NCBI GenBank assembly: GCA_947627455.1
Contig: CANQWC010000008.1
Span: 1-64,000 of the forward strand
Direction: 5' to 3'
DNA: 64,000 nt
From: an uncultured Clostridia bacterium
GTDB lineage: Bacteria; Bacillota; Clostridia; Oscillospirales; Ruminococcaceae
In this document: piece after piece, positions 756-52,460 of the stretch
Numbering within the stretch: position 1 is the first letter of the stretch
How the letters are laid out: each line of letters starts with the position of its first letter
The notes under the pieces: generated by a model
The model's database searches: none
What the model was told of the DNA's origin: nothing
The model's input: the letters and a program-made list of their open reading frames with translations, nothing else
Translations under genes and position numbers: made by a program

Positions 756-1556
756 ATGTCAATCTTTCTGTTTAATCCGCTCTTGGCGGGCTATATGCTT
801 TTAATCGCGTTTTTGGTCGGCGCCTGCGCGGGCAGCCTTGTTAATTGCCTCGAGCTTCGGCTTGATAATAAATCGGGCTCGGTCTTTGGGCGCTCGGCCT
901 GTCCCAACTGCGGCCATCGGCTTGGCGTTTTTGACCTCTTCCCCGTTTTAAGCTTCGTTTTTTTGCGGGGCAGGTGCCGCTATTGCAAACAAAAAATCTC
1001 TCCCCGCTATCTTTTTGTCGAGGTCTTGTTCGGCATCGTTTATGCGGGGCTTCTGGCTCGGTTCGGGCTTTCGTGGCTAACCCTTGAATATATTCTTTTA
1101 TTCACTGTTCTGGGGGCGGCTTCGCTCTGCGATATAACAACAATGTCTGTTCCCGATTGGCTTGAAATCCTCGGCGCAGTGGTTTTCGCCCTGTTTTTAT
1201 TCACCCACCCCGAGCCGCTTATCCGCCTTCGCAACGGCGCAATTGCGCTTGTGTTGTTTGGCGGTGGGCTTTTGGCGCTCTCACTTATCGCCGACAAAAT
1301 TTATAAAAAAGATACTCTTGGCGGCGCCGATATCAAGATCTTCGGGCTTTTGGGGCTTTTCTTCGGGCCCGCAAAAACTCTTCTGCTCTTGATTTTAAGC
1401 TGCGTTTTCGGGCTTGTTCTTGCGCTTATCGCAAAGGTCGGCCTCGGAAAAGAGTTCCCCTTTATCCCCGCGATAACCCTTGCGGCTTATTTCTGCGCGC
1501 TCTTCGCCGACCCGATTTTAAACTGGTATATCGGCTTGTTCAGCTTTATGCACTGA
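756..1556 (+). CDS. Prepilin peptidase (A24 family, PilD-like)
   Basis: Polytopic membrane protein with CPNC...CRYC N-terminal motif and GGADIKIFGLLG (GxGD-like) motif. Confidence 0.92.
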   Translation: MSIFLFNPLLAGYMLLIAFLVGACAGSLVNCLELRLDNKSGSVFGRSACPNCGHRLGVFDLFPVLSFVFLRGRCRYCKQKISPRYLFVEVLFGIVYAGLLARFGLSWLTLEYILLFTVLGAASLCDITTMSVPDWLEILGAVVFALFLFTHPEPLIRLRNGAIALVLFGGGLLALSLIADKIYKKDTLGGADIKIFGLLGLFFGPAKTLLLLILSCVFGLVLALIAKVGLGKEFPFIPAITLAAYFCALFADPILNWYIGLFSFMH

Positions 1557-1572: not shown

Positions 1573-2547
1573 ATGGGAAAGAGAACCGGTGGTTTTGATA
1601 TAGGCGGCCACGCGCTTCATATAGCCGTCGCGACGAAAAAGGGCGTTAAAAAGGTTTATACCGAACCTTTGCCCGAGGGCTCGGTTCGCGACGGAAGAAT
1701 TGTTTCTTATGAAGCCATGGGCGATTTTATCAAACAAACCTGCAAAAAGCGGAAAATCCGCTTTGACGACGGCGCGGTAGTGCTGCCGTCGGGGCTTTGT
1801 TTCTGCCGAAGAATGTCTGTCCCCGTGATGACTCACGAACAGCTGATGGTAAACCTGCCCTATGAATTCCGCGACTTTATAACCTCCGAAAAAGAAGCGT
1901 ATTTTTACGACTATGCGGTTTTGCGCGTCCTCCGCGACGCTGACGAAGAGCCCGCCGAGCTTGACATAATGGCGGCTGCTGCCCTTAAAACGACCATCGC
2001 CGATTATCGCTCGATGTTTCGCCGCGCGGGAATAAAGCTTCACACCGCAATTCCGACGGAAATGTCCTTCGCGAATCTTCTTGCCCGCTGCCAAGAGGGC
2101 CACTGCCACTGTATAATCGACGTCGGCCACACCTCGGTAAGGCTTTATATGTATAACGGCAACAGGTTTGAATCTTCGCATATTATAGATTACGGCTGCG
2201 AAGCGCTCGACAACGCGATATCCGAGGCGCTTCACATCGACCCGTTCATCGCGGCCTCATATCGCGAGGCCAACCACGACGGCTGCCAGACCATTCCCGA
2301 GTGCGAGTCTATTTATCAGAGCCTCGCGGTCGAGATTCAGCGCGCCGTTCACTTCTTCCGCTATAACAACCCCGACATCGAGCTCGAGCATATTCACCTC
2401 ATCGGCGGCGGCGCGCTTATGGAGCCCCTCCGCGAGGCCCTCGAGAATACCCTGTCGGTGCCGATATACAACGCTTCCGAGCTTTTGGACGTCGACGGCG
2501 TTGAGACCGAGTTCGGTCTTGTTGCCGCGGGCGCAGCGTTACAGTAA
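1573..2547 (+). CDS. PilM-like type IV pilus assembly ATPase (actin-like fold)
   Basis: FDIGGHALHIAVA, IIDVGHTSVRLYMY and HLIGGGALMEPL motifs; position in pil operon. Confidence 0.85.
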   Translation: MGKRTGGFDIGGHALHIAVATKKGVKKVYTEPLPEGSVRDGRIVSYEAMGDFIKQTCKKRKIRFDDGAVVLPSGLCFCRRMSVPVMTHEQLMVNLPYEFRDFITSEKEAYFYDYAVLRVLRDADEEPAELDIMAAAALKTTIADYRSMFRRAGIKLHTAIPTEMSFANLLARCQEGHCHCIIDVGHTSVRLYMYNGNRFESSHIIDYGCEALDNAISEALHIDPFIAASYREANHDGCQTIPECESIYQSLAVEIQRAVHFFRYNNPDIELEHIHLIGGGALMEPLREALENTLSVPIYNASELLDVDGVETEFGLVAAGAALQ

Positions 2548-3899: not shown

Positions 3900-6800
3900 A
3901 TGAAATTGCTGCAGCGAATGAAATCAAAGAAAGGCTTCACGCTTGTGGAGATGGTGTTGGTCATTGCCATTTTGGCGGTGATCCTTGCATTTGCCGTGCC
4001 CGGGGTTGATTCATACGTCAAGCGCATCAAGCTCATGGAGCTTGACGATTCGGCGCGCTCAATTTTCATGGCTGCCCAGAATAAGCTCATGACCCTTCGC
4101 TCGTCAGGCAAAAGCCTTAATTTTGATGGCGCAAAATTAGTGGAACTTGAAAATGTCCCCGAAGATTTCAGAAAAGATAACGATGGCAATTTGCTTGACT
4201 TTGCGGATTCAAAGAACCCGCCGAAGTTCTCTTATATCTATTTTAATTACAGTGATGTTAAAAATAGCAATCCTGAAAAATTAGTTGATGATTCTAACAT
4301 CATCAACCTCGGCGCGATTGAGGATCAGATTTATACAAACGAATTTGTCATCGAATACGATGCCGCGACGGGCACCGTGTTCGGCGTATTTTATACCGAG
4401 GACGACGGCGCGCTCGAAGACTATGACCCCGAAAACATGGAGCGCGGCTTTGAAGAGCGCCTTGAAGCTGGCGGCACCATCGGCTATTACGGCGGAGGCA
4501 CGCTTGTTGAGGTGCCTGTTGGGGAAGAAATTACCACGCCGATAATTAAGAATGGCGCGATGGAAAAGCTTGTTGTATATGTAGAGTGGCCCGATGGCTT
4601 TGACGAAGCCGAAAAGCTTTATTTCACCCTCTCAATTGTAGGACCTGAAAAGGGTGCTGCAAGTAATATGCAAACTGTTGAAATTATCTCAAAAGATGAT
4701 TCATGTTATATTACTAAAGATAATTACAGCACTATAATTCTTGACTCGTTGGCGCCCGGGCTTAGCTCAGATAATGGACAATGGGATATTCCCAGCGATG
4801 CAGGCGATCACAACCTTTCTTACCCGTTTGTACTTGAGCGTGATTTCAAAGGCTGGGTGCTCAAGAAAAATCTTGTATTTGACTCAGAAAGAGGCGTCTA
4901 TTACCCAAAATATAAAGGCAAAATGTGGCAAGGCGCAGAGATGGAGGGGACAGAGTGGCTCCGAGATGATTACCCCATGGATCCGCAAGATAACGGTTCA
5001 TCTTCTGAGGGTCAGGGTTATCCCGGTTCCAATACAAATTCTAATTACATCATAAACCCTGGAAGCGACATCACTGTTTATGTGACCTTTTATGATAAAT
5101 CAGGCGTATATAAAGATATTCCGACTGTTAAACCGTATCCCGTCAACAGCTATTTTAACGCGCTTGATGGTACTACAGCCAAAATAGCTGCAGGCAGACA
5201 TCTTCAGAATTTATCAAACTATGTTCTGCAAGATACTGTAAGCGATGTATTTATTGAGCATGATATTGATTTCAGTAAAAGTCCCGACTCTGATACTGAT
5301 CCAGAGAAGAAAAATGTCTATTACTATTGGAACGCCGATGAAACTTATAACAGATATTATGATTTCAAGCCCATTGGAAGCCAATTTGTTAAGAATGCTA
5401 CATTCTTAAAAAATTTCGATGGAAATGGATGCACAATTTCTTATCTTAAAATTGACAGTGACGCACACCATTTTCCTGAAAATAGTTCAGGATATGAAAA
5501 TACAGCCTTTATTACGGATTTGCTTGATTCTGGCAGAATGAGTAATATAACATTTTACAGGCCATGGATTATAGGCAAAACGATAAATACTGCCGTGTTC
5601 GTCGGTAAGGCCACTGCGGGAACCAACTTCCACAATATTACCATAATAAATCCGATTGTTGAAGGCGGCGTTGAAGGCGTAGAATCTTATGTAGGAACAC
5701 TATGCGCTGATTATAACTGCAATGGTGGAATTGAAAAGTGCAATGTTGTTATAACGGATTATTCTAACGATTATGACTTTAGTTATGAAGAAGTAGTAGT
5801 AGAGGGCGAAACTTTAAAAGAATACGTCAATGAGTCGGGCAAGCACTATCAGGATTCGCTTGACTGGGGTGACCCAACTAATGACCCGTATAAAAAGTTT
5901 TATATAAAAGGCTTAACAGCCACAACATACGCTGGCGGCCTTTTGGGTAGGTCATCAGGTACTCTAAACGGCACATCATGTTCCATCAGGGTCGAGAGCG
6001 AAGGGATTGCGGGCGGACTTGTTGGTGTTATTGATGGAGGTACTGTCAATAACAATTATGTCGGCGGTCATACTTATAACGGTTCTTATATCGTAAAAAC
6101 TGATGACGGTATTTACAGCCTTATCAACATCGATGGCAAGGTGGCATCAGGCGGTTTTATTGGCGAATTGCGGGGCGGTATCAGTATGACAACTGATAGC
6201 AGCACTGCCTCGGTAGCTTATTCAAACGGCTACGGTGACGGTTTTATCGGAAAAGCCTTAAGTTCGGACAAATTCAATAACTCCTATGCTCTTGGTTGGG
6301 TGATTGATGCTGACAGCAATAAAGTAGTGAGCAAATCCTCAAAGTATGTGGCGGATATTCGAAACGTTAATAATGCTGTAACATCACAAGCTGAGCCTTA
6401 TGACAAATCGCTTGGCAATATTTACCCATATAGTAATGATAATACTTTTCCTGTTCGTGTCGGTGACTGGCCTGTCGACCCGCCGCTCTTCGGGATATTC
6501 TATTGGGAAAAAGACTCCGCAGGCAATTATAATATCGATACCATATATTATAACTGCAAAGATGGCAGCAGCGACCCCTCTATTGAGCCGACGCTGCAAG
6601 ATATTGATATAGCTGAATTCGGCTATGGATACTACTATACCTCGGCTGTCAAATCTGGAAATGAAAGCATGATGGAGGACGTCGGCAGCGCTGTCAGCAA
6701 CGACGACATCACAAAATTAAGCGGTATCATCGAGGAAAAATTAGCTGATAAAAATATTATCATCACCCCGACTGTTGTCGCGAAAAAAACCAGTGGTGAC

Positions 6801-9800
6801 GCCTATACGGCTCCGAACGGCGAGCGCCAGTCGATCACGTTCAGCTATGATGACAAGCAGATAACCTTTACTTATCACCCTGATTTCTATGCGCTTGAGA
6901 TGACCGAGGGCACAAGCACTCTCGGCGAGGTCAAGGGCAACCCGTATAAGGTCCGCTGCCAGAAACAGCTTGAAAATATTTCAAGTACCCCTGACGGCGT
7001 TTTTAAGCAGCACCGAGCGTTTGATCTCAACGAATCATATAAGCCCATTTGCACCGATGGTTACTTTACGGGGATTTATGGCGGCGGAGATTATGAGATT
7101 AGGGCTAATTCAATTTCGCATGCTTCAAATGCAGTAGGTATTTTTGCCAAGACCAGAAGCGCAACAATAGAAAATGTTAATGTTTCATATAGCGGAACAG
7201 TTTCGCTCGGCAAGCAAATTGAAAACGGGCAGAAAGCAGGCGTCGGCGGTATAGTCGGTATCGCAATAGGCGGAGTGTTGAATAATTGCTCTGTTTCAGG
7301 AATGAAGTTTGATTCAACCAGCGCTACTAAGCTTCAAAGCGGTACAAGTCTCGCTGTCGGTGGTATTGTTGGCTACAGCAGTGCTACTATACGTAAATGC
7401 GACGCTCCAAAAGTTCAGTCGGCGAATTCTATTCCGACGAATCCTATTCAATTTAATTTTAGAGCTGATACAACTAATACTTTGATAGCATTTGGAGGAA
7501 TAGCGGGTTCGGCAAGCGGAATAATTGAAAATTGTTCTATTACAAATTTAGAGACAGAATTTGAAGATAATGCCGACAATTCATTACTGATTGCAGGCGG
7601 CATTGTGGGAAATAATGTCGACTACCTTGGAAGAACGACGCTCAGCGTTTCAGGCTGCTATTCAAATGCAAAGCTGACAAGGCCATCGGGTATAAACAGC
7701 GAAGGTAAAACCACTTTTGAGTCCAACGTTCTAATACACCCGATTGCGCCTACTCATATGCATGTGGTAGCCGATGATCCTCAGTATTATTCTAATATAT
7801 CAGATGCAGATGCATATAAAGGCAAAGTTTATGAGTTCAATACGGGAACCGGTTTAAAATCAGAGGGTGGCGAACTTGATGTAACTATTACTGATTGCTC
7901 AGCTATGCAAGGTCAGGGAAGCTACAATTCTTTGGTGTGGGGTAATGAAGCAGTTACGGCATCAAAAGATGGTGAAACCAGTAAAATCCCCTATGACGTT
8001 TATATAGCCGAGCCTCCGAAGAACATACATGCGGTGGTATATGAGAGAAAAGTCCCAACCGTCGGCATTTATGCGCTCTACGAAAAAACCGATGGCGTAA
8101 ACAACTCTGCCTTGGCCGCGAAGATAATCGACAACAGCGTTTACAGCGGAAGCACTACGAATAACCAAACTATCGTAATCAACGAGGATACCAACGTCGA
8201 ATCTAAACTCGACCCGCTGCATAAATACGGCATTTTCGTCGACTTCGGGCGCTTCGAGGAAATAAGCGTTAAGGTTAATGGCGTCCCGCAGACAATCAGC
8301 CTTACTTCGTTGAAAGATATGGACGGAAAAACCCTCCATCGCACTGAAAACGGTCAGTATATTGATATTGATGTATCCTCAGCTCTTAATCTTAACAATG
8401 GCGAGAATACAATCACGATAGTTTATAAAGAGAACGAAACGACAAATAGTGAAATCTGCACATACACTATCAACGTTCCTGCCGAAAGAGAGCCTTACGC
8501 GGGCGTTTACGAGCTCTATCAACAGGGCGATACTACTCATCTTGATGCCATCTATAACGACGGCAAGAATAAAAATCAGACTGTTAAGCACAAAGATGGC
8601 GATATCAAGCTGGGCAAGTGCGGCGTAATGATTGAACATTTCACATCTGTCAACCCGAGGAATGTTGCCTTCACCGCGGAGATCAGCTATACCGAAAACG
8701 GCGAGCAAAAGACCATCAGCAACGCTGATTATGTGCTCGTTGACCCAAGCCATATCGGAAATGACGGGGAGAAAGCTCGCGCGAACGGCAAGTATTTCGA
8801 CTTCTATGAAATCAGCGATGAGGTTTACAGCGCCATTCCCGAGGATACCGACTACACAATCAAGGTGATATACAGCGGCAAGGCCATCGCCGAGGGAACG
8901 TTCCACAAGGACGTGAAAGTGCCGTATCTTGGTATTTACGGCGCGATGCGGGTTCGCAATAAGTATAATATGAATGATGAATCTTTGATTGATGATGTTG
9001 CTACCGCAGTTATTTCAAACAGTTACAAAATATCGAAAACATATAATAATATGTGGTCGGGAAATTACAGCGAAAATTATGACAAGTATTATGGCACGCA
9101 TATAATGGTTGAGAGAGGTGCTGATATTTCAAAAATCGAGCTTACTCTTACGAAGTTAGACAAGTCAACGCAAACGGTTGAAGTCAAACCTGAGTATAAG
9201 GTCGAAAACGCCGCGTATATTTTGGTCGGTGCACCGAACAGCGCCACCGTCAGCTTTTTCGAGGGCTTGATGTTTGACAGCTATAAGCTGCCCGACGATG
9301 TTATTCAAGATGTCGCCGAGATTTCTGCGACATATATTTGCTCTGACGGCAAGACGACCCAGACTGTAAACGCTAAGATTTTGGACGACTTAAAGGGTGA
9401 GATAATCGGCCACGAGCATAAATTTGGCGCGTATGAAAGTGTTGATAATAACACCCACAAGCGCACTTGCGAAGTCTGCGGATTTGTTGAAACAAGCCCG
9501 CACAACTGGGACGATGGCGTTAAATCATCAGAACATGAAGGAAAACTTAAATTCACTTGCGAAATCTGCAAGGCAACAAAGGAAGATGATGATAAGTATA
9601 ACGATAAAATGCTTTGTGTAGGTTTCTACTCCATTTATTATCAGAATTCAGATAGCGCGTCAATTGCATGGTATAACGGTCTTAATGGCAATGATGATTT
9701 TACGGTGGAAAATAAGTATGATGAAAAGTTATCACCAAGGGCCGCGGGCGATGTCGGTATTTTGATAGATTCTCAATATAAAGATTTGATTTCTGTATAT

Positions 9801-10376
9801 GTTGATGGCGAAAAGATTGATACCGCCAAGCTTACCGATAACTGGAACAATAATATAAGTGAGGCGCAGCAAAAGGCCTATAAGAATAAATATGGTGATA
9901 GTTACCCTTCGCTTTCATCTTATAAAATTCCGCTTGAACTAAATGGAGAGCTTTCAGTAACAATTACGGTAAAATACAGTGAATATGAATTATTCACGAA
10001 AGAAGTTGAGGTTCAGTCTCCGCCGACAGTTGGTGTATATAGGATATATGCAACTAACAATGGTTCTTATTATGCCTATGGCAAAAAGAGCGATGATCAA
10101 TTCATTGGAAGTCGTGACAGCGGTTGGATGGTAGCAACAAACACATATGGTCTGGTTATTGAGGAAAGCAAATCCTCAGAGATTAAAAACATGGAAATTC
10201 GTGCGGGGGGGGGTACAATTTCGCTGAGTGAAAGTAATAAGTGTTCCATCTCGAATACATGGCAAATCAATGGTTATAAGCTCATAGAATTCTCAGAAGA
10301 AATTACCGAAGGAACTACCATAGAGATTATTTACAACGGTGAAACATTAATGACCCTGAACAGCAACGATATTTAA
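3900..10376 (+). CDS. Giant prepilin-like protein (2158 aa): prepilin N-terminus, GLUG-like repeat regions, C-terminal Ig-like repeats with an embedded CxxC module
   Basis: MKSKKGFTLVEMVLVIAILAVILAF N-terminus; AGGLLGRSSGTL/AGGLVGVIDGGTVNNN/VGGIVGIAIGGVLNNCSVSG GLUG-like motifs; five xVG[IVF]Y repeats near the C-terminus. Confidence 0.9.
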   Translation: MKLLQRMKSKKGFTLVEMVLVIAILAVILAFAVPGVDSYVKRIKLMELDDSARSIFMAAQNKLMTLRSSGKSLNFDGAKLVELENVPEDFRKDNDGNLLDFADSKNPPKFSYIYFNYSDVKNSNPEKLVDDSNIINLGAIEDQIYTNEFVIEYDAATGTVFGVFYTEDDGALEDYDPENMERGFEERLEAGGTIGYYGGGTLVEVPVGEEITTPIIKNGAMEKLVVYVEWPDGFDEAEKLYFTLSIVGPEKGAASNMQTVEIISKDDSCYITKDNYSTIILDSLAPGLSSDNGQWDIPSDAGDHNLSYPFVLERDFKGWVLKKNLVFDSERGVYYPKYKGKMWQGAEMEGTEWLRDDYPMDPQDNGSSSEGQGYPGSNTNSNYIINPGSDITVYVTFYDKSGVYKDIPTVKPYPVNSYFNALDGTTAKIAAGRHLQNLSNYVLQDTVSDVFIEHDIDFSKSPDSDTDPEKKNVYYYWNADETYNRYYDFKPIGSQFVKNATFLKNFDGNGCTISYLKIDSDAHHFPENSSGYENTAFITDLLDSGRMSNITFYRPWIIGKTINTAVFVGKATAGTNFHNITIINPIVEGGVEGVESYVGTLCADYNCNGGIEKCNVVITDYSNDYDFSYEEVVVEGETLKEYVNESGKHYQDSLDWGDPTNDPYKKFYIKGLTATTYAGGLLGRSSGTLNGTSCSIRVESEGIAGGLVGVIDGGTVNNNYVGGHTYNGSYIVKTDDGIYSLINIDGKVASGGFIGELRGGISMTTDSSTASVAYSNGYGDGFIGKALSSDKFNNSYALGWVIDADSNKVVSKSSKYVADIRNVNNAVTSQAEPYDKSLGNIYPYSNDNTFPVRVGDWPVDPPLFGIFYWEKDSAGNYNIDTIYYNCKDGSSDPSIEPTLQDIDIAEFGYGYYYTSAVKSGNESMMEDVGSAVSNDDITKLSGIIEEKLADKNIIITPTVVAKKTSGDAYTAPNGERQSITFSYDDKQITFTYHPDFYALEMTEGTSTLGEVKGNPYKVRCQKQLENISSTPDGVFKQHRAFDLNESYKPICTDGYFTGIYGGGDYEIRANSISHASNAVGIFAKTRSATIENVNVSYSGTVSLGKQIENGQKAGVGGIVGIAIGGVLNNCSVSGMKFDSTSATKLQSGTSLAVGGIVGYSSATIRKCDAPKVQSANSIPTNPIQFNFRADTTNTLIAFGGIAGSASGIIENCSITNLETEFEDNADNSLLIAGGIVGNNVDYLGRTTLSVSGCYSNAKLTRPSGINSEGKTTFESNVLIHPIAPTHMHVVADDPQYYSNISDADAYKGKVYEFNTGTGLKSEGGELDVTITDCSAMQGQGSYNSLVWGNEAVTASKDGETSKIPYDVYIAEPPKNIHAVVYERKVPTVGIYALYEKTDGVNNSALAAKIIDNSVYSGSTTNNQTIVINEDTNVESKLDPLHKYGIFVDFGRFEEISVKVNGVPQTISLTSLKDMDGKTLHRTENGQYIDIDVSSALNLNNGENTITIVYKENETTNSEICTYTINVPAEREPYAGVYELYQQGDTTHLDAIYNDGKNKNQTVKHKDGDIKLGKCGVMIEHFTSVNPRNVAFTAEISYTENGEQKTISNADYVLVDPSHIGNDGEKARANGKYFDFYEISDEVYSAIPEDTDYTIKVIYSGKAIAEGTFHKDVKVPYLGIYGAMRVRNKYNMNDESLIDDVATAVISNSYKISKTYNNMWSGNYSENYDKYYGTHIMVERGADISKIELTLTKLDKSTQTVEVKPEYKVENAAYILVGAPNSATVSFFEGLMFDSYKLPDDVIQDVAEISATYICSDGKTTQTVNAKILDDLKGEIIGHEHKFGAYESVDNNTHKRTCEVCGFVETSPHNWDDGVKSSEHEGKLKFTCEICKATKEDDDKYNDKMLCVGFYSIYYQNSDSASIAWYNGLNGNDDFTVENKYDEKLSPRAAGDVGILIDSQYKDLISVYVDGEKIDTAKLTDNWNNNISEAQQKAYKNKYGDSYPSLSSYKIPLELNGELSVTITVKYSEYELFTKEVEVQSPPTVGVYRIYATNNGSYYAYGKKSDDQFIGSRDSGWMVATNTYGLVIEESKSSEIKNMEIRAGGGTISLSESNKCSISNTWQINGYKLIEFSEEITEGTTIEIIYNGETLMTLNSNDI
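10205..10213 (+). repeat. Poly-G tract (9 G) inside giant prepilin coding sequence
   Basis: GTGCGGGGGGGGGTACAATT. Confidence 0.95.
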
Positions 10377-10394: not shown

Positions 10395-11039
10395 ATGAAC
10401 CGCAAAGTCAAAGAAAAACTTAATAGCAAGCGCGGGGCTTCGGTTGTGCTGGCGCTCTTCCTGCTGTTGGTCTGCACCTTCGCGGGGACCTCGGCGCTGA
10501 CCGCTGCCCGCGCGAACGTCGGCCGTTACTCGACCATGCGCGAAACCCAGCAGGATTACCTTTCGGTCACCTCGGCCGCAAAGCTTATCATCGCTGACCT
10601 TCAAGATAACGACCAAAATGTTAAAGGCACAATTTCTTCTGGCAGCGCTACTGATTACGTGACATATTACGGTGATGAAACCTCTACTTTCTACCATTTT
10701 ATCTTGGACGACATCAAAACGCTTATGCACAATAAGGCCGCCGAAGATGTCAAGAGCAAGGGCGGCGCATGGAGCAGCTTCAAGAGCGAGACCAAAACTT
10801 TTGAAGAGCGGAATTTTACCCTCAAGATTGATGGCAAAGATGAATTCGGTGAGGTCGATGTAAGCTTCAAGATCGATTCGGGCGGCAGCGCCAAGGTGAA
10901 GCTGACCTGCGGCTCATACAGCTACAGCTTTGCGATCGGAATAGGCTTTATAAAAGACGGGGAAATAAGCGATTCCAAGGCGAGTTATATTCTTAACGTG
11001 AGCGGTGAGATTCCCGAGATCAGGCCGGAGGTGTCATGA
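10395..11039 (+). CDS. Minor pilin-like protein lacking Glu+5 (GspK/PilX-like N-terminus), copy 1
   Basis: NSKRGASVVLALFLLLVCTFAGTSALTAARANVGRYSTMRETQQDYLSVTSAAKLII; paralogue of 12051..12749. Confidence 0.75.
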   Translation: MNRKVKEKLNSKRGASVVLALFLLLVCTFAGTSALTAARANVGRYSTMRETQQDYLSVTSAAKLIIADLQDNDQNVKGTISSGSATDYVTYYGDETSTFYHFILDDIKTLMHNKAAEDVKSKGGAWSSFKSETKTFEERNFTLKIDGKDEFGEVDVSFKIDSGGSAKVKLTCGSYSYSFAIGIGFIKDGEISDSKASYILNVSGEIPEIRPEVS

Positions 11040-19662: not shown

Positions 19663-19908
19663 CGCGTGTTGATTTAACACGCAAAAGCACAGGAAAAAAT
19701 TAGGAAAGTTATCCTTTCCCGTAGATTTTCAACAGTTGAAATTCGACGGGGGGGGGGGTAAATTTTTTGTTAAAAAATAATATTTTAATTATTACCCTTT
19801 TAAAATTTCTTTTATAAGCTCGGGAAAGGAGAATAGGCGAAAATACGGGTATTTTTATCAACTTTAGACAATTTTATTATATAATTTTATCCGAAGGAGA
19901 GATTTTAA
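19663..19908 (+). promoter_or_regulatory. Long structured 5' leader containing an 11-G tract (19748-19758)
   Basis: GCGTGTTgatttAACACGC hairpin near predicted TSS; 10-bp complement TCCTTTCCCG (19712-19721)/CGGGAAAGGA (19821-19830). Confidence 0.6.
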
Positions 19909-22900
19909 GTGAGAAAAGTTTTTGATAAATTATCATCTAACAGATACATAACTAAATTAGCGAGTGCTGCCACGGCGGTGCGCTTTGCGCGTGCTGCCCT
20001 GACGGCGCTTCTTGCTGTCGGAATAACCCTTGGCGCGACCGTCGCCGTCAGCGCCGAGGGAACGAGGGACCTTTATGAAACGGCAAAAGTAAACTATGAG
20101 GAGGTCAACGCTACCACCAATAACTGGGAGAAGAACAGTTCCCGAATAGTTTTCCGCTTGGAAAAAACCGAGAGCGGCGGCGTTATGGGCCCGCAGAAAT
20201 TTAAATTTTATGCTTATGAAGGCGAAGTCGTCTTCCTCGGTTCAAGCGCAATACCGTCAAGCGGTGCATTAGCTGTAACAATAATTGACCCCAATGAGCA
20301 GAAGACTGAATTTAAATTTGATACTGGGGCAAACGATACTAACATAGGTCAAAATTCAACTTTGACAGGCTTCATTCCCACTCATGATAAAGAAGCCGCA
20401 GGACCGAACGGCGTGTATCTTCCTAAGATGGACTATGCCACGGGTAAGCCTGTCACTACTAAGAGTGCAGGTGATATTGAATACAACGGGCTTATATATC
20501 CGAGCAAGCCTGTCGGCGATGACGGTTATAACCCATGGGAATACCATGTGCAGACAAGCGGTCAGTATACTGTTATTTTCAATGCTCCTCATGCCAATAT
20601 ATCGACAGCAAGTAATCCACATCAGTTGCCGCTTAGTATAACGGATTTTTCTTGGGACAATACAACCAAAGCCAATGGTAAGAACTATATCGATGCATGG
20701 GATATTACTGTCGCAAAAGTGGACGGCGTGGGCGATGATGCAAAATATTATGCTCAGTCAGGCCGTGTCTGGGCGACCGCATTTACGCTGCAGACGCAAA
20801 ACAATGTATATGGTTATTTGTACAACGTCACCCGCGATGGCTATATCTGGCGCCTCGGGCTCAACGGTATTGTCCCTTGGACCACTTCGCTTTATGCCAA
20901 TGCGAGGGGAATGATCGGAACGACCACAAACGCCTCGCTTTATCATTCCATTCACGAGCCGATGTCGAATAAAACGGACACTACAACCTATAAATCTCTT
21001 CGGGATAAAAACGCAAACCCCGACGGAATAAATATTTTGGGTCCTGATAACTACACAACCGCACTTGACAGCCCATACCCGATGTTCTTCAATTATCCCG
21101 ACTCGAATATCCCTGAAAGCACCGTAAAAACTAAGGCCGACCCGCAGGGCACAGCCACCGATATACGTTTTGACGGCCGTGCTGACGGCAGTGATGATAC
21201 AGACGTTGGGGACGCAACAAAGGATAACCACGAAGGCTCAGTTGGTGCAGGCGGATATTTCCAGGTTAAGACCGAGGGCGCAACGTCATATCGTGTTATC
21301 ATCGACATGACCAATATGTTTGCCAAAAACTACCATGTAGCAGGTACACATGGTGGAAACGAAAATGTTCACGATGAGGAAATATGCCTGAGTTCGCCTG
21401 AAAAATGCGGCGCTGATGATAAAGATATAAACTTTGTTGCATATGTAAAAGATTCTGATTTTATTGTAGGTAAGGAAAAGCCTGAATGGTTTAAGGACGC
21501 TGGTTGGTACGGTATTTTTGCTGTCAAAAAAGTGCAAGATAGTGTTAAGTACGAAGATTTATATTACGACAGACACCCGAAAACTGATTCCACAATGAAG
21601 AAAGACGGCAAGTGGGACTTCAGCAGCATTATTGAGATAAAGAAGCTGGAGGGCGATGATCTTCCTGACGAGCTTAATGGTAAAGTCCCCAACGGTGAAG
21701 GCAACGATATCGGCGAATATAAATGCCTCGGCAAAATAATGCTCGGCAACGCCGTTGACAACGAAGACCCCGATGACGACCGAATCTATTGGAACGGCCG
21801 CGACCAGTACGGGCGAATTCTGCCTGTCGGTCAATATTTCGGCAACACGGGTCTCGGCAAGGTTTATGCCGAAGCTAAGAACGGCGAAATCCACTTCCCG
21901 ATCTCTGACGCCGAACAGATTCCCAACGGCCTTTCGATCTGGCTCGAAAACCCGCCTGAAACGGTCACAACTGTTGAAGCGCGTTCAAGCCTTTATTATA
22001 ATAATGTTGATAAAAGCATACTCCGTGACTATACGGTAAATGATATGTCGGGTATTGCCACTATCGGTAAAAATGAAAAGGGCGAAAAGACATTTCCAAC
22101 AACTAAAATGAAGGGAAATAATGCATGGTATTGGAACTTGCCAAGTAACCTGACATGTAACACAGGTGTAAGTGACGTCAAAGATTATGTAAACACATCA
22201 GGGAACCCGGCATTTGATAATAATACCAGTGGACAAATAAGCTACAGCGGACAGGTTACGAAAAATGCTGACAAACGTAATTGGGAATGGAATGTAAAGT
22301 CAGATGGAACAACAAAATATACCGTGTATTCTTCATGGTCTGAGGTGCCTGCTGACAAAAATAAAGAAAAAAATGATGGCACCGGTGATTTTGTAGTATA
22401 CGAAAACCACAGTATTGACGGTGTTGCGAGCTATAGCGGTAGTGAGAGCAGCAAAACGCTGACAAAAATAGCAGGTAAATTCAATCTCAACTGCGGCTCG
22501 GACCACGGCGTTGTTGACTTCTGGACCAACGTTTTAAGTTCAGGCGCAGTAGTCCTTGATGAACCTGTTGTGCTCACCCACGTTGCCGATCAGGTAATCG
22601 TCAGCGGATTTGTATTCCTTGACGAGGAAGTATCATTTAACACGACAGATGAAAAATACGACACTCAAACCAACGACCGCGCTATCGCAAACGCAAAGGT
22701 TCATGCTGAGTATTATTCAGATAACAATAAGGGAGGAACGAAGACCGAATACGATACCCACACCAACACCGACGGTATTTACTCAATTCCTGTTGATGAG
22801 GCTAAATTGGGTCCTGATAAATTGGTTTACATAACCGTTACCTACAATGACCCCGAGGTTTCTGCCAACGTCATAACTCACCGCGTTACAACCGTAGATA

Positions 22901-25900
22901 AATCAAAAAACGATGCAAAGCTTAATCCTACATTAACGGGCGGCGTGGACGGCCATCGCTCAAAGCAGGAGCATGGTTCCGCTATAAACGAGTGCAAGAT
23001 AACCATATCACTCAAACCGATTGGGCAGGACGCTAACGGTAAAGATATAACACAAAAGGTTTTCTATGCCACAAACGTTGGCTATTTTGCCACGCCCTAC
23101 AGCGGCGTTCAGACATCTGATGAAAACGACCCGCTGATGATTCAGAAGAGCTGGGACCCTGCCGATAAAAAGACTTCAAGCCTTAACGCTACCTTTACGA
23201 TTTTAGGCTTTACGACTGACAATCACTTAGATGCTGAAAGCACAACAACAGCTGGCCCAGGTCCTACCGAGACGCAGCCACCTAAATATACTGTCGATGC
23301 AAACGGAAATGTCAAAAATGGCGAAACGGTAGTATCTGCGTATAGCAGTAGTAACCAAACCGGCTATATATTCAAAAGGCAGCATGTTTCTGTAAACGAG
23401 GCAGAAGCGGGCGTCACCAAAATCACCGACCTGCCGATGTACTATTATCCGAATGGAACAACAGATGAAAATCGCAATACAGCAAAGCAGCGAATTTACT
23501 ATATCGTTATTGAAGAGCCCATCGGAGGAAAGGCCGCACAACCGACGGTTAAATATGAGGCCGATTATCATGACGGCACTCAGACAGCACCGTTGTATTA
23601 TTACTGGCATTTCACCAACAAAATTGAAGTTACGTCCTTTAAAGAAACCGTATTCCTTGACAAAGATAATGATGGTGTGTTTGATAAAGGGCTAAACGAT
23701 GATAAAAAAGAGGAGCTTTCAACGGCGTCTCTCAGCATTGCTTTGTCTAACGCTGGCGAGAAGCAGAACATTACCTATACGCCCAGTGATGATGAAGTAA
23801 AGTGGCTAAATGAACATCCTGATAATATGTTTGCTGACAGGTGCAAGGTTAGTGAAGGTTATGATTATGATTATACAACCTTTACCATAACGACTGATGA
23901 TGAGTTTAAACTCGATTTTGATAATCCCAATAACCCATTTGTTGAGGGCGACGGCGTCATTCAGTTTGATGGCCTCCCGCAGGGAACATATATTATAACC
24001 ATAGAATACCCGACCAACGAGGCATATAACAATGCGTTCATTCTCGGCGACGAGAAAGAATATGGCGGCGAAATTAAAAATGTTTATGAAAACATAGAAG
24101 ATGTTGACATTTCTGCCAAGCGCGATGGCAATACCGTTGTGCAAACCGTTAATTTGAAGCCTCTTGAAACAGGCAAGGTCGCCTCGACTATGGTCGGTGT
24201 CGGCAGCTTTAACGAAACAAAAGCCATAGCCGATATTCTCAACGCCCAGGGCATATCAATTCAAAAAACCGTCACCGGCGGCTCGGGCGCCATTCCCTTT
24301 ACCGATGATTTTGAATTCACTCTTGAGTTTAAAGCCGAAGACCCCAAGGTAGAAACAACCGGCTCTGGATCCTTAACAACCCCCTATCGAGCGACTTTTG
24401 AAAACTATCATTATTCAACGGTTAATAGTTCCCCCAAGGCCGATGTTAAAAACTTTGGAGAAGCCGTCGATATTACCGGCTTTGAAACTATCAGTTTCCA
24501 TGCCGCCGGTAAGTTCACCTATACTTTAAGTGAGAATATCCCCACAGACGATCCAATCCCCGGCGTTACATATGATAAGTCCGAGTATGAAATAGTATTC
24601 AAGGCGGTAAATGACACTACCAAGAATACTGCTGAGATTACAGTCGAGGTCAAACAAACCAAGGATAAGGGCGGAACTGTACTTAGCGCATCTGAAACTG
24701 TTGACCCCAAAAATATCACCTTTACCAACGACTATCCCACGGGAAGCGTCAAGGTCACGAACACTATCGAAGGCACGAGTGTGCCCGAAAACAAGGAATT
24801 TGAGTATACCGTCAGTATTCAATATGATGATGGCAGCGGCCTTAAAAATCTTGATGGCACCTTTGCGTTGGTATCTGGCTCTACGAATACTACAATCTCC
24901 AATGGCGGTACGTTTTCGCTGAAAAATGGCGAGAGCTTCACAATCTCAAATCTTCCTGATGGCGCCAAAGTAACCGTCACCCAAACGCCCGATACGATGT
25001 ATGATACCTCCATCACAGTCAATAAAATCGACGCCAGTGACAGCTCTGTTACCATTGGAAATACTGAGCAAGAAATAGGTTTCACAAACAAACACCACGA
25101 GGGCAGCCTCTCAATCAAAAAGGAAGTCAAAGACGACAATTCCAGCAATGATTTTGGGTTCGATTTTACCGTGACGGTTAATGGCATAACTGAGAGCAAA
25201 ACGAATAGAATCGAGTCTGCTAAGCCATACAGTGGCGAGGCCACGTTGAAGATTGATGGGACTTCTAAGCCGAATTTGGAATTTAAAGATGGAATAGCTT
25301 CATTTACAATCAAAAAGAATCAGACCGCGTTAATCAGCGGCCTGCCCGATGGCGCGTCATTCACTGTTACGGAGACTGAAAACAGCTTTTACACACCTGA
25401 TGAAAGAGTATTAAATGGCACTATCGACAAGGGTAACCCCGCCGCGCTCACCGTCACCAACACTTACAAAACTAACAGCATCAAGGTCATCAAGGAAGTC
25501 GAGGGCGCTGACGGCATTACGCTTCCTGATGGTGTGATGAATAAAGAGTTCACGTTTACTCTCACCGTCACCCCGCAGCCTGGCAACAATTGGAATCCAA
25601 AAACACTTGAAACGGTGCCAAATAGTATTAACCTTACAAAAGTTGATACTGCCGATAAGCCAACATGGACTTTTAAGCTCAGTGATAGTAAATCCGTTGA
25701 GATTAAGGGTCTTCCCGTCGGCGCGACCTATACTGTCAAAGAATCTCCCGACGCATACTACAATACGGCGTATTCAATAGAAAATGTTGATACGACGTCG
25801 CAGAAAATTACCGATGATCCTATTGAGCTCACCGTCACCAACACCTATAAAACAGGCAGCCTGATCGTCGGCAAAAAAGTTTCTCATGCACAAGGCGTTA

Positions 25901-28900
25901 CGCTCACTGATTACGCGACAAATCAGGAGTTTGATTTCACGCTTAAATTAACTAATGTCGATCCAGACTGGGATCCTGAAGAACTTACAACAGGCGATAT
26001 CACCGTTACAAAAGATACAAAAAATAACGCATGGAACTTCAGCCTCTCGCATGGTCAATCCGTTGAGATTAAGGGGCTGCCCGCTGGCGCGACCTATACG
26101 ATAGCCGAAAAGGACATTACGGGTGATGCTTTCATTCCCGCGGCGGGCAATCCAACCGGCGGAACAATCGCCGAAAATGAAACCTCTACGGCGACTGGTG
26201 CGATAGCTGCGTTTACCAACACTTACAAACCCGAAGGCAAGTTGGCTCTTCAAGTGAAAAAGACGATTGTCGGCGATGTGTTGCCTGATAGTTACAGCGG
26301 TTATTCGTTTGAGTTTACTCTTGACAATGCCGCAGGCAAAGATAATGAAGGCGCAACGCTCCCGACGCAGACAACTTTGACGATGGACAAGAGCGAATTT
26401 GTTGGTGGCTATACTCAAGCGAAAAGCTTCGGCGACATAACCTTTAACCGCCCGGGCACATATAAATTCACCGTTAAAGAGACTGAGGGTACATACAACT
26501 TTGATTACGACGAAAGCGAGTATACCGTTACAGTAGAGGTCAAGGACAACAACGGCACATTAGAGCCGACTGTCACATATGAAAAAGATGGCGACACGTC
26601 TCCTACCGAAATCGTGTTCACAAACACCTATACGCCGACGCCTGCTACGCTTGCGCTTGATGTCACCAAGAATATTTTCGGCGATGTGAAGCCTGATAAT
26701 TACAGCGGCTATTCGTTTGGGTTTACTCTTGCCAATGCCGCAGATCATGATAATATCGGCGCAGCGCTCCCGTCAACGACAACTTTGACGATGGACAAGG
26801 GCGATTTTGATAGCGGCTATACTCAAACGAAAAGCTTCGACGCAATAACCTTTGACCGTCCTGACACATATGTATTCACCGTTAAAGAGAATAAGGGCGC
26901 ATACAAATTTGATTACGACGAAAGCGAGTATACCGTTACAGTAAAGGTTGTGGACAACAACGGCACGTTAGCAGTGACGAGCACCACATATGAAAAAGAC
27001 GGTGTTCCGACTACCGATGGAATCAAGTTCACAAACACCTATACGCCTACTCCTGCTGAACTCACCATTACGGTCAACAAGACAATTGCGGGCGAAAACG
27101 TTCTGCCAAATTCTTACAACTTCGATTTTGTGCTTAAGAGCACGGATTCTTCCGCAACAACGAGCGAAACCCAAACAATCACTATCAATGAGGACAACAG
27201 GAACGCTAAACATACTGTTGATTTTACAACGCTCACATTCCCTGAAATCGGCAAATATTCCTACACCGTTTCTGAGACTTCCGAATACACAGGCTTCACG
27301 GCTGACCGAAGTATTCAGACTGTTTCGTTTGATGTTAATGAAGACGCCGATGGCAATCTGATAATCGAAAATTGCTCAGTTGCAGGCACGTCGGTTGAGC
27401 CCGTTGGCGGCAAGGTCGCTGTCAATATTACGAACACTTATGACCCTGAAGACGCCAAGTTCACGCTCAACATCAATAAGACGATTATTCAAGAGACCAA
27501 GCTTGACCATGATCACGAGTATAAATTTGAATTTACTCTTGAACCAAAGGGCAATACGCCAACCGCCCCGAAGCCTGAGCCGCTTACGCTTACGTCAACT
27601 AATGGTAACATTGTGCTTGATGGCGCTTTCGATGTGATAACCTATGACAAGGCGGGCACTTATGAGTACACCCTGACCGAGAAAGAGCTTGAGGGCTTTA
27701 CCGCCGATCATAAGGCCTATGATGTTAAGGTTGATGTTGTTGACAACAGCGGAAAGCTTGAAATATCAAGTTATACTATCGTCTCGGCCGACGAGGATGC
27801 TGTTAACACCAGTGGCAGTAGTGCTTCGGGCGAGATAACCTCTGCAGAGGTGACATTTGAGAACACCTACAAGGAAACCCCTGCAGCAATAACCATATCG
27901 GTTGAAAAGAAGTTTGAGGGCCATGTTCTTCCTGAGGAGCCGTTCACCTTTACGTTTAATCTTAAACAGACAGGCGCTCCCGAGGACTTTGAGGGAGATA
28001 CAAGTAAGACAGCCACATTTAAGAGCGACGAAATAGAAAAGGTTAATTCCAAAACTGTAAAATTCCCGCAGATAATCTATGACACTGCGGGTGAGTATAG
28101 GTATACTCTCACCGAGCAGGTCAACTACAAAGACCCGAGCAGCTTAGGCTTTACCCCGAGTGCGACAGAGCATGAGATAATCATTACTGTAAAAGACCAC
28201 GACGACGGCCATCTGTATATTGAGAGCTACGAAGATGTTGTAAACGGAAAACAGGTAGTTTATGACAAGAGCAGTCTAACATCTAAGAAAGAGACTGTAA
28301 AAATCACCAACACCTATGCTCCGACGCCGACGAGTTACACTCTCGGGGTTGCAAAAACCGTCGCAGGCAACGAGCTTCCGCTCAATGCTCTTGGCGAGCC
28401 TTATAAATACAACTTCAAATTCACCCTCTCAAAAGACGGAGTTACGGTTGGTGAGAAAACCGTCACCGCAAGCAGGGGAAATACCGCAATTGACCCGTTT
28501 GACTTTGACGAGTTTGAATTCGAGTCTGTCGGCAGATACACCTATACCCTGACCGAGGAAATCACCTGCGACGGCATAACCGCGGCTAACTGCGGCTTTG
28601 TGGCGCCGGCTGAATATGAGGTTGTCATCGATGTCGTCGACAAAGGCGGATTCCTCGAGATAGAAAGCTGCACCGTCAACGGCACAAACGTCGACAAGGC
28701 AAAGTATCAGATCCCGATAGTGAATACCTATTCGCCGACCGAGATTTCTGTCGATGACGCCAAAGACCCGCACATCGTAACGGTTAAAAAGACCCTCGCG
28801 ACCGAAAAGGGCACGTCTGTCAAATTCCCGCAGCAGTTTGAGTTTGAGGCGACCGTCGAGAGAAACGGCGCGGCCTCGACCGATTCGGGCTGGGCGGGTT

Positions 28901-31900
28901 CGACCTCGACCACACTTAAAACCGATGGCGGTGAGAATGGCGTCGGCAGTGTTTCGGTGACGGGCCTCACATTCAAGGAAGCGGGAGAATTTACCGTCAC
29001 GCTGACAGAAAAGCCCGCTGCGGCGGCTGCCTACGGAACTGTCACGACCGATGCGAGACCGCTTGAAATAACCTATACCGTTGAGGACAAGGGCGGCTAT
29101 CTTGTCATCACCGACGTCAAGTATGAAAAAGATTTTGCGTTTGAGAACGTCTATGTTCCTGCCGAGAAATCTGCCGATGTCAAGCTTGTGAAGCGCCTTA
29201 TCAACACCGTCACGGGCGGCGACAGGCTCGGGCTTGAGACCACCAACCCCAACTATGAAAGGTTCAGAACACTCTACGACGGTCAGTTTGAGTTCACTCT
29301 TACCCCTGCCGAGGCATACCCCGCCGAGGATATCGCCCTTGGCGGCGAAGCGACGGCCGAAATCACCGCGCATAACAGCATGAATTCTGTCGATTTCGGT
29401 GAGCTCACATTCAAGAGAGAGGGCGAGTATGTCTTCACCGTCGACGAGGTGACGCCGACATCGAAGCTCAGGCAGGTGACATATGACAACAAGGCTGCGA
29501 CGCTTACCTATACCGTAACCGTCGACCCGAAGAGCGGCGAGCTTCTCTGCGACAGCGAGTTCAGCTATAAGCTCGGCGAAAACCCGATAGATGTTCCCGC
29601 TTCGCATAAGGTGCCGACCTTCACCAACTACTACGGCCCGCACCCCTGCACCCTCACCATCACCAACATTGTGAACACCGACCCCGAGGGCATCGACGTC
29701 GACCTGAACAAGGAGTTCAAATATCACATTGTTTTAGAGGGCAACTATATTTCGCCGACCGACGCCGAAATCGCGACATATGAATACTTCTATGAAATGT
29801 CGATGACCCTTGCCGCTCTTGATGAGGGCGAAAACGATGTTGAGCGGTTCAGCCTCGACTTCAAGAAGACCGACAACGACAAATACGAGGCCGATATATC
29901 GGTACCTCTCGGCCACAGCGTCGTCATCGAGGGCATACCCCACTACGGAAGCAAGTATACCGTCACCCAAGACCTTGAGGGCGCGGCAGGCTACAGCTTT
30001 GTTGAGGTTCATGAGCTCTATCATTCAAGGGCGATAGCGGACGATACCGAAACCGACACCCCGACTGATAAAACCGATGTAAAGCCCGTCGGCGAAGATC
30101 AGACCAAGGAGAGCGGCAGCTTCATCAGCGAGCTCGACGGCACTGAGATCACCTATATCAACACCTATACCGTCAGCGCGGCGACCGTTGAGGCCCCCGA
30201 AATCACCAAGGTAGTCAGCGGCGAAAGAGCTCTCAACGAAAGCGACAGCTTCAGCTTTGAGGCGGTTCTTTCGGCGGGCGATGCGTTCACCTCACCCGAC
30301 GGCGCAGAGTTTGTCGGCGCAGACGGTTCGGGCCTCGGCTCTTCGGCGAGCGCTTCGACCGAAAACGGCGGCGACACCGCAAAGCTCGGCAGCATTAAAT
30401 TCACAAAACCCGGCGTCTATATCCTTACCGTGAGCGAAACCGCCCCCGAGGGCAGCACCGACAGAAAGCTCAACGGCGTTATCTATGACGATGCGGTTTA
30501 TACCGTGACCTATACCGTTACCGACGAGAACGAAGCCAACGTCAAGGACGGCACGCTTAAGATTTCTTCGGAAATAGCAAGCGGCGGCAAAACGGGCCTT
30601 GAAAAAATAGTCTTCACAAACGTTTATACCGCTGATGACACCGACGCCGTGAAGTTTGACATCACAAAGCTGATTCGGCCCAACGATGCGGCAGCCATGC
30701 CAGCGGGCGAGACCTACAGCTTCAGGATTGAAGACGAAAACGGCCTCGGAAAGGACACCGAAGCTTCGATAACCCTTGAAAAGGGCGAGGCAAGCGGCTC
30801 GGCAGAGGTTAATCTCGGCGCGTTCGGCGATGTCGGCGAATACACCTTTGATGTTTACGAGGTGAGCGGAAACACCCTCGGAATGGTCTATGACGACGCT
30901 CACCACACCGTCACCGTCAAGGTTGAGGATAACCTCTTGGGCAAGCTTATTGCGGCGGTTGAAATCGACGGCAAACCCGTTTCCGACGGCGATTCCGTCC
31001 CGTTCACAAACGATTATCACACGGGCAGCGTGACCGTCAGCAAGACCGTCACGGGAATCAGCGGCGACTTCAAGAAGCCGTTCAAATTCACCGTAACATT
31101 CTTCACCCCGAGCGGCGAAAAGCTTGAGGGCGAGTACCCATACACGGTTGTTTCCTCTGAGGTCGGCATCATGCCGTTGAGCCTGACTAATACCGTTGTC
31201 GAGAGCGGCGGAACGATTGAGCTCACCCACGGGCAGCAGTTTACCGTTACGGGAATTCCCGACGGCGCGAACTTCAGAATTGAAGAGGAGCAGGCCGCGG
31301 GCTATCACACCACGGTGAACGGCAAAGAGGGAAGGCTCTTTGACGGCACTGTAAACCACCTCACCGATATTCATGTTAAATATCAGAACCGCAGCGAAAG
31401 CGCGTTCACCTTTGAAAACATCGGAAGAAAGACTCAGGTCTTCCCGGGCGACGGCGTATCTGTGACTGCGGGCGACGTTCTTGAATATGAGATCGTCTGG
31501 CAGAACCCGAACACGAAAGACGCGGTCATCACCGTGACCGACAAGCTCTGCGACGGCGTTGAATTTGTCGAGGCTTCGGGCGATTATGACTACGACCCCG
31601 AGACCCGCACCGTCACATGGACAGTTTCGGCCCGCGGCCTTGAAAACGGCACACTGAGCCTTAAAGTCTCGGTCAGCGAGGGCGCCTCGGGCGACATCAC
31701 CAACTCGGCAGAAATTTCTGTCGACGGCGGCACCCCGACCGTCGCTGACGGCGCGCCAACGAACCCGATCTTCGCGCTTGAAATTGAAAAGCGCCAGTCG
31801 CTCAACGGCGGCGAAAAGACCGCGTCAGACCTTGCGGTAAGAAGCGGCGACACCGTCACCTATTACCTCACCGCGAGGGTTGTCGGCAAGGATGGGACAG

Positions 31901-34900
31901 TCGCCGAGAATGTAAAACTCAGCGATGAATACCCCGTCGGCCTCGGCCTTGTGGGCGATATTTCGGGCGGCGGAGCATATGACCCTGACAGCGAAACGGT
32001 TAAATGGAATCTCGGCGATCTCACCGTCGGCGACGAGGTAACGCTCAGCTATACCGTGAGCGTGCCCGAGACGGCCGCTTATGCCGAATGGGTCTGCGGC
32101 GCAGAGATATTCTCAGACGCCGAGAACAGAACCCCGCTCGTCTATTCCGAGAAAGTCCGCGATTATACCGTCGGCGACCTCACCGTTTCAAAGGCGGTCG
32201 TCTCTGACGGAGAGATTCCGAACGGCGTCAAGTTTGCGTTCACGATAACCCTTGATACCGACGAGGTTCTGAGTTACACCAAATCCGACGGCACTGTCGG
32301 TGCGCTCAGCGGCGGAAAGCTCACGGTAAACCTCAGCGACGGCGAATCGGTGACGGTGAACGCTATACCGACGGGCACTGCCTATACCGTCAGCGAGAAG
32401 CCTGTCACCAACTATACCTCTGACAAGCCGAACGACACGGCGGCGGGTGCAATCAAGAACACTGCGGAATCGGTGCTCTTCACAAACACATATTCATTTG
32501 TTGAGCGCGAGCTCGGCGGCATCACCGTCACGAAGGTCGTCTTCGGCGATGCTGAGGATATGCTCCGCGATTACCACTTCACCCTCACGCTCAGCGACAG
32601 GACAATAAATCAAAAATTCGGCGATATTGAATTCGTTGACGGCGTTGCGAGCTTCACCCTTAAAAACGGCGAAAGCGTCTCTGCCGAGGGTATACCCTCC
32701 AACCTTGAGTATACTGCCGCGGAGGAAGAAGCCGACATGTTCGGCCTCACTACAAGCTCACTCAACGGCTACGGCCTCATTCCCGTCGGCGAAACGGTCG
32801 ACGTCATCTTCCTCAACGAGCGCGCAGAGGTTCTTACGGGCTCGCTCAAGGTCTCAAAGACGGTCGTCGGCACTGCTGAGGATATGTCAAGAAGCTTCGA
32901 CTTCATTGTCACTCTTGGCGATGCTTCGATAAGCGGCCTCTACGGCGGAATGAGCTTTAACGGCGGCGTAGCGACGCTCAGCCTCAGAAGCGGCGAAAGC
33001 ATTTCTGCCGAGGGCATTCCCGCAGGAACCGCCTACACCGTTGAAGAGCTCGGCGCGGATATGGGCTATACCACCGTCATGAGCGACAGCGGAAACGGCG
33101 TTATCACCGCGAACTCTGCCGCCGAGGTGAACTTCACCAACACAAGAAAAACGGGCGGCCTCACCGTTAGAAAGACGGTTGTCGGCGATGAATCAGCGAT
33201 GCTCATCCCGTACAACTTCACTGTCACCCTCAGCGACGCTTCAATAAGCGGCCTCTACGGCGGAATGAACTTCAACGGCGGCGTCGCGATGTTCAGCCTG
33301 ATGAGCGGCGAGAGCGTCACCGCTGAAAATCTTCCCGCAGGTGTCGGCTACACCGTCACCGAGGCCGAGGCCAATCTCGGCTCGATAACCTCGATGACCG
33401 ACGATTGCCTCGGGGTGATCCCCGAAAACCGAATCGCAAACGTTGCATTCACCAACGCGATTCCCACGCCGAACAGCCTCACCGTTTCAAAAACCGTAAT
33501 CGGCGGCGAGGCGGACATGGCCTATCCGTTCGGCTTCACGGCGATGCTCTATAACCCCGACGGTTCTCCGTTTGCGGGCGAGTCGGGCGGCCTTCTGTTC
33601 GACGGCGTCAACCCCGCTGTATTCACCCTCACAAACGGGCAGAGCATTACATTCAGAGGCATTCCCGACGGCGCACGCTACGAGATCCGCGAGAATGCTT
33701 ACCCCGAATTTATCACCGAGATTTCGGGCGCTGCCGAGGGTCTGATGACCTCTTCGGGCGCGACGGTATCCTTCACCAACACAAGAGTCACAGGCAGCCT
33801 CAGCGTTGTGAACAGCGTTTCGGGCAACGCCGCAGACCCGAATAAAGACTTCACGCTCCATGTTCAGCTCAGCGACCCGAGTATCAGCGGAACATACGGC
33901 GGAATGACGTTTGTCGGCGGATATGCTCAGTTTACACTCAGGCACGGTCAAAGCCTCACCGCTCAGGGCCTGCCCGCGGGCGTCGGCTACATCGTCACCG
34001 AGGACGACGAAACCGCCGACGGCTATGTCACTTCATTCAGCGGCAGCGAATCCGTTATCGCCGCCAATGCCGAGTCGGTCGCAAGGTTTGTCAATACAAA
34101 GAATATCCTCCCGCCCGAGGTCGGCTCACTGACCGTGGTCAACAACATCATCGGCACCACCACCGACGAGGAATTCTTCTTCACCCTGACCTTTGACAGC
34201 CCTGCCGCCGCAAGCGAATTTGCGAATATCTATCTGCCGATGAGCGATACCCCGACAGATGACAGCGAGGTCACATTCGCGCTTCGCCACGGCGAGAGCA
34301 GAACCTTTGACGCCATTCCCGCGGGAACGGTTTACAGCATAAAACAGGCTGAGAATATCTACTACTCAACGACGAGCATGAACGCCGACGGGGTTATCAG
34401 AAACGCCGTAAACACCACTGCGGTATTCAACAACAAGTGGTCGATTGGCGACCTCAGCGTTGCAGTCACCGTTCAGGACGACAGCGGCAAGATTCTTGAC
34501 AGCGACCCCGCAAGCTTCAGATTCAGGGTTACGCTTACCAACCCCGACGGCACACCGCTTCAGGGCTTCGGCTATCCCTCTCACTTTGCGGGCACCGACG
34601 GCAAACCCGACGAGCTTGTCGGCAGCGATGTATTCATGAGCTTCAACGAAAACGGCGTCGTCGAATTCACGCTTGAAAACGGCGGCCGCGCGACTGCGTT
34701 TGATCTTCCCGATGATCTTCTCTATTCTGTTGAGGCCGTCGCCGAAGACGGCAGGTATTACAGCATCGCAAGCGGAAGCACGAGCGAACAGCGAGCGGGT
34801 GTCATCATGACCGATGAAGCCGCAGACGAAGAATTTGTCTATGAGATCGCGACGGGTTCGTTCGAGGTCACAAAGATGCTTATTGGCTATTTCGGCGAGC

Positions 34901-52139: not shown

Positions 52140-52460
52140 AAAAGTTTTCGGTTGAGCCTTTTGCAAAAGGCTCACGGGTTTCCAAAGGGCAGCGCCCTTT
52201 GGTCGCGCTCCGCAGAGCGCGAAATCTCCAAAAAAGAGCACGCGGTTAAGCGTGCTCTTTTTAAAAGCGTAAGCGAAACGCAGGAAGGGGAGCGAAAATC
52301 TGTCCGGTGGACAGTTTTCGCGTGGGGGGGGGAAAAACCTCGTCGGGGGTTCCCCCGATTTTCGAGCGCCAGCGAGAAAATTTCCCCGCCGCCGAGCTTG
52401 CGAGGCGGCCAGTAGCGGAGGGGGTTCGGGGGAAACCCGCAGGGTGCCCCCGACTTTATC
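52140..52460. repeat. Hairpin-rich intergenic island (at least 7 consecutive stem-loops), includes terminator 52231-52263 and a 9-G run 52324-52332
   Basis: GCCTTTTGCAAAAGGC, AAAGGGCAGCGCCCTTT, GCGCTCCGCAGAGCGC, AAAGAGCACGcggttaaGCGTGCTCTTT, CTGTCCGGTGGACAG, CGGGGGTTCCCCCG, CCGCCGAGCTTGCGAGGCGG. Confidence 0.8.

Follow-up and report, generated by a model that had tools for sequence, protein, structure and literature searches.

The run of nine G residues at positions 10205 to 10213 of the window, a 64,000-nucleotide stretch of DNA from an uncultured bacterium of the Ruminococcaceae, is likely to be a slipped-strand contingency locus and one of several loci with poly-G tracts in this group of gut Clostridia. 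The tract lies near the 3' end of a giant type IV pilin-like gene, and every predicted slip of one or two bases would truncate the product. The proposal, made from sequence, is carried by the reading frames, by the lengths and alleles of similar tracts in genomes of the same genus, and by a sequence context which most of these tracts share.

The giant pilin gene and its G tract

The gene (3900..10376; this and all other features of the window described here are on the plus strand) encodes a protein of 2158 amino acids. Its N terminus carries a class III signal with a methylation motif (PF07963, E value 1.7e-6), and genes for a prepilin peptidase (756..1556; PF01478 and PF06750) and a PilM-like assembly protein (1573..2547; PF11104, PilM_2) are located upstream. 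On the basis of this motif and these two genes the protein was classified as type IV pilin-like, albeit of unusual size. It is probably a surface adhesin. Repeat alignment showed that the C-terminal part consists of tandem repeats. The terminal repeat domain (10023..10373) was delimited by this alignment, by a low-confidence fold and by homology to the end of the pilin of a relative, genome G015. The next open reading frame of the pilin cluster (10395..11039) starts 19 nt past the pilin stop and is possibly coupled to the pilin gene in translation.

The nine G residues are in frame and belong to codons 2102-2105 (GCG GGG GGG GGT), as an earlier note on this DNA had described. Of the 192 glycine codons in the gene, 12 are GGG, fewer than for any other glycine codon. 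Among the tract lengths from 7 to 11 G examined in silico, nine G alone kept the frame. Products of 2109, 2108, 2110 and 2109 amino acids were obtained with 7, 8, 10 and 11 G, respectively, with stops at 10225-10229, within about six codons of the tract. The frames with 8 and 10 G were exactly those given in the earlier note, and its estimate of about 50 residues lost, half of the last repeat, agrees with the loss of about 54 of 2158 residues, or half of the terminal domain, found here. SSR contingency loci are recognised by a length of about 8 G or more, which this tract reaches, and by an altered product or promoter when the length changes; here each slip of one or two bases would truncate the product. 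The predicted fold of the last domain is of low confidence (mean pLDDT 66) and usable for rough placement only; in it the GGG is found at a turn between two strands, and five of the ten strands lie at or after it.

In the proposed mechanism, replication slippage would alter the number of G residues in the tract. With nine G the full giant pilin would be produced (ON). Past the tract, the protein aligns with the C terminus of the G015 pilin (E value 1e-7), which indicates that nine G is the full-length state. With any of the other four lengths the half domain would be missing, and the distance from the pilin stop to the next gene of the cluster would grow by about 150 nt. A cell could thus switch either the last domain of what is probably a surface adhesin or the function of the whole pilin. 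That the tract slips, that the pilin acts as an adhesin and what phenotype follows are what we infer from these data. As only a small part of the protein would be lost, the outcome may be switching of the last domain or uncoupling of the next gene and not a full OFF state; the small size of the truncation also counts against a contingency locus.

Relatives of the giant pilin, of about 1600-2600 amino acids, are present in genomes of the same genus. Two sister species, G010 and G021, have homologous giant pilins with G9 tracts of their own. In G010 the tract (HKSSGGGTVSE) is about 145 residues before the C terminus, and in G021, where the gene is a fragment, the tract (NWFGGGYTMKK) is about 45 residues before the end. 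The tract of the window is found in the context EIRAGGGTISL, at a C-terminal position unlike those of the other two. Because the three tracts are at different positions, a G9 tract has probably arisen more than once in this family. The giant pilins of G015 and G017 were also searched for such a tract and had none, which argues against a contingency locus.

It is possible, if rather doubtful, that the tract serves mainly to vary the C terminus or to switch coupling, so that the pilin is made in all states while the last domain changes or the next gene is uncoupled. That the tract is 97% of the way through the gene, with the next reading frame beginning shortly after the pilin stop, fits this explanation. 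Other tracts are likewise found at gene ends, namely in DegT genes and in genes whose shared GGGYSYKLTL tail precedes an AGGAGG-like site, and C-terminal phase variation has been described in Helicobacter canadensis (PMC2823697). The tracts of G010 and G021, however, do not keep a fixed distance from the end, and a relative has kept the terminal domain, so that its loss probably matters. With the contingency-locus reading retained, the tract is a credible case of slipped-strand phase variation of the C-terminal type, in a sequence context that is unexplained.

Long G tracts in the same genus

Tracts of at least nine G were collected from the source genome (G000) and seven further genomes of the genus. 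They were fetched by the tract alone, without a flank criterion, which gave 56 tracts. Tract-bearing loci in these genomes include giant pilin genes, promoters and genes for acyltransferases (Acyl_transf_3), DegT aminotransferases, a cytidylyltransferase resembling CMP-sialate synthetase, a bacterial sugar transferase, an SDR protein, a solute-binding lipoprotein and an AAA_31 protein resembling CpsD. One additional gene without a Pfam match probably encodes a glycosyltransferase, judging from its sequence. Many of the tracts are in gene types that are usually found to be phase-variable. Some tracts elsewhere in the genus are located in promoter spacers, for example TTGACAAAACTGC-G10-TATAAT.

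Coding tracts in the ON, in-frame state were present in the window, twice in L009, in L052 and as the first tract of L069. OFF alleles were found in two acyltransferase genes. In L050 positions 3-149 of the Acyl_transf_3 profile matched to the left of a G11 tract and positions 155-324 to the right in another frame. In L069 positions 3-260 matched to the left of a G10 tract and 268-325 to the right, again in another frame. Surface or envelope genes of the genus carry such tracts with both ON and OFF alleles, as is characteristic of SSR contingency loci. Tract lengths also differed at matched flanks. A DegT gene had G10 in G018 and G9 in G003, near-identical paralogous copies within G018 had G11 and G10 or G9 and G7, and an intergenic AAATTCATC site (L099, L104, L291, L292 and L295) had G9 or G10 across five species. 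Such differences are what slippage would leave. The frames, the same-genus tracts, the ON and OFF relatives, the length differences and the homologous pilins together support the proposal of the earlier note that the tract is a candidate slipped-strand contingency locus.

Several observations were made at individual sites. At the AAATTCATC site the G tract could form a stem with the CCCCCGCCCC upstream of it; the length of this stem would then track the tract length. Different genes end in nearly the same tail downstream of the tract, GGGYSYKLTL.ADLRKEAA followed by AGGAGG (L076 at 1046 and 1813, minus strand), and the same tail occurs in L126, from a genome of another family; it is possibly a transferable 3' cassette. 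A search of 31 genomes for the pre-insertion site of the two coding tracts of L009 in G000 gave no useful DNA homologue, and one match of 50 bp.

The window contains two further long tracts. A G11 tract (19748..19758), with the shared flank in the form AAATTCGAC-G11-TA, occupies part of the spacer in a weak promoter-like sequence (TTGAAA-17-TAAATT, 9/12), 150 bp upstream of the start of a gene (19909..35424) for a giant adhesin-like protein of 5171 amino acids that consists of Spy0128-like isopeptide domains and domains related to them (PF12892, PF24547 and PF19407). This tract is a candidate promoter-type switch. The third tract, a G9 at 52324-52332, is located in non-coding, interspersed-repeat-like sequence and has no shared flank.

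Run lengths and the shared flank

The window contained 254 G/C runs of length 4, 48 of length 5 and 7 of length 6, a decay to about 0.2 per added base (about fivefold). No runs of length 7 or 8 were present, but two of length 9 and one of length 11 followed this gap. The three distinct tracts of at least nine G correspond to five overlapping matches; dinucleotide shuffles gave a mean of 0.36, and five matches were reached in 0 of 100 shuffles. The 2.0-Mb source genome had 32 runs of at least seven, of which 12 were of at least nine G. The shuffle mean of the window scaled to 2.0 Mb is about 11, close to these 12 tracts. The count alone therefore proves little, and the argument is carried by the length distribution and the flanks.

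The consensus around long G tracts in the same-genus genomes was AAAATTNNGC-G9..12-TA. The tract in the pilin gene has the matching form AAATTCGTGC-G9-TA (10195..10215). A C before and TA after the tract were present at 45 of the 56 long tracts, compared with 40 of 1000 runs of G4-6 in the same DNA. When AAA at -12 to -6 was included in addition to the C and TA, the numbers were 38 of 56 and 4 of 1000, while the mirrored flank used as a control was found at 0 of 56 tracts. The flank occurs in coding tracts of different frames, in promoter spacers and upstream of -35. The consensus persisted after promoter-like sites had been removed from a larger set, which includes sites found via the motif.

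Searched as a pattern, the motif was found in 15 of the 31 genomes from the genus and in 20 of 396 from the order, and its reversed form in none; in a sample of the phylum it was rare (6 of 398 genomes). A scan of named genomes gave at least 115 stretches, many from gut Clostridia, Bacteroidota, Gastranaerophilales and Alphaproteobacteria, in which the flank is present by construction since the pattern included it. In seven genomes reached through these loci, 54 of 106 other G9 tracts were followed by TA, so that part of the flank pattern extends beyond the genus.

Several causes of the flank were considered and rejected. A promoter remnant does not account for it, as sites without TTGAC keep AAAATT, C and TA yet show no -35 signal. 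Hairpins of upstream C-runs with the G tract were not enriched (p 0.08-0.25), although individual sites such as the AAATTCATC site could form one. A protein constraint was discarded since the coding tracts are in different reading frames. Nor is the motif confined to tracts above G8: versions with G6-G7 exist, many of them plain TTGACA/TATAAT promoters, and several come from species that have no G9 motif tracts. The loci L135, L137, L138, L140, L142-L146 and L148 hold TTGACA/TATAAT-like promoters whose short spacers (14-16 nt) contain G6-G7. In Campylobacter jejuni, which belongs to an unrelated phylum, slippage in PCR was unaffected by flanking sequence (PMC4965091), whereas the flanks here are strikingly alike; that result, from PCR and not from cells, speaks against a simple effect of the flank on slippage.

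The shared flank of long G tracts is thus unexplained in coding and promoter sites alike. We tentatively suggest that the poly-G tracts of this clade, and more weakly those of other gut bacteria, may be born or kept only in the context AAAATTNNGC-G9..12-TA, whether in genes, in spacers or upstream of -35. Such a restriction would mean either that some sequence-specific factor acts on the tract or that a strong context rule governs its birth and slippage.

The pilin tract is unlikely to be a chance or neutral homopolymer that plays no part in switching. The agreement of the genome-wide G9 number with the shuffle expectation favours this explanation and, taken alone, weighs against a contingency locus; some other G9 tracts, such as the third tract of the window and that of L010, are also in non-coding repeat-like DNA. 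The shared flank, the gap in run lengths, the ON and OFF relatives and the recurrence in homologous pilins are all contrary to it. A role of the tract within an internal promoter whose spacer length it sets (TGGAAA-16-TACAAT) is more improbable still. Other tracts of the genus are clearly within TTGACA/TATAAT spacers and a 9/12 promoter-like match spans the pilin tract, but shuffles of the region yielded 1.3 such matches, so that this match is not above shuffles; non-promoter tract sites had no -35 signal, and the frameshifted relatives point to coding switches. G tracts are error-prone and assemblies may misjudge their length (PMC9187656), which counts against a contingency locus, yet an assembly or sequencing error is highly improbable here, because it is with nine G that the reading frame continues into the homologous C terminus and because the flanks are conserved across separately assembled genomes.

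Comparison with known systems and significance

The closest parallels concern pilins and 3' tracts. The sortase-pilus switch of Bifidobacterium breve, in which slippage was measured by Maximum Depth Sequencing, is also found in a gut commensal, with a G tract in a pilin gene, and there too the frame determines if the pilin is produced in complete form (PMC9187656). There the pili are of the sortase type and the tract lies between the secretion signal and the LPXTG part; here the pilin is type IV-like, the tract is near the end of the gene and slippage is predicted. In H. canadensis long poly-G tracts near gene 3' ends similarly change only the C terminus, but mostly by a few residues and with variation seen in populations (PMC2823697), whereas the larger change here is predicted from one assembly. 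Streptococcus sanguinis PilB and PilC are, like the pilin of the window, type IV pilin-like proteins of a Gram-positive bacterium, and their large C-terminal domains are believed to mediate adhesion; they are of about 50 kDa, far from the 2158 residues of the tract-bearing pilin, and the excerpted text of that source mentions no tract (PMC6497953).

As in C. jejuni, where tens of G tracts per genome are mostly in surface-modification genes (PMC4965091), the tracts of this genus form a set. Similar flanks of unrelated repeats are also known from human microsatellites, where they were attributed to shared mutational bias (PMC509290); that case concerns dinucleotide repeats, in contrast to the fixed positions beside bacterial G tracts seen here.

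A prior report of a poly-G phase-variable set in such uncultured gut Clostridia was not found in the open-licence literature. The present data point to such a set, in which giant type IV pilins recur as targets, and several of its tracts now carry predicted ON and OFF states. The birth and mutability of contingency loci are usually ascribed to tract length alone. Should the shared flank prove to be biologically meaningful, it would be relevant to what governs both.
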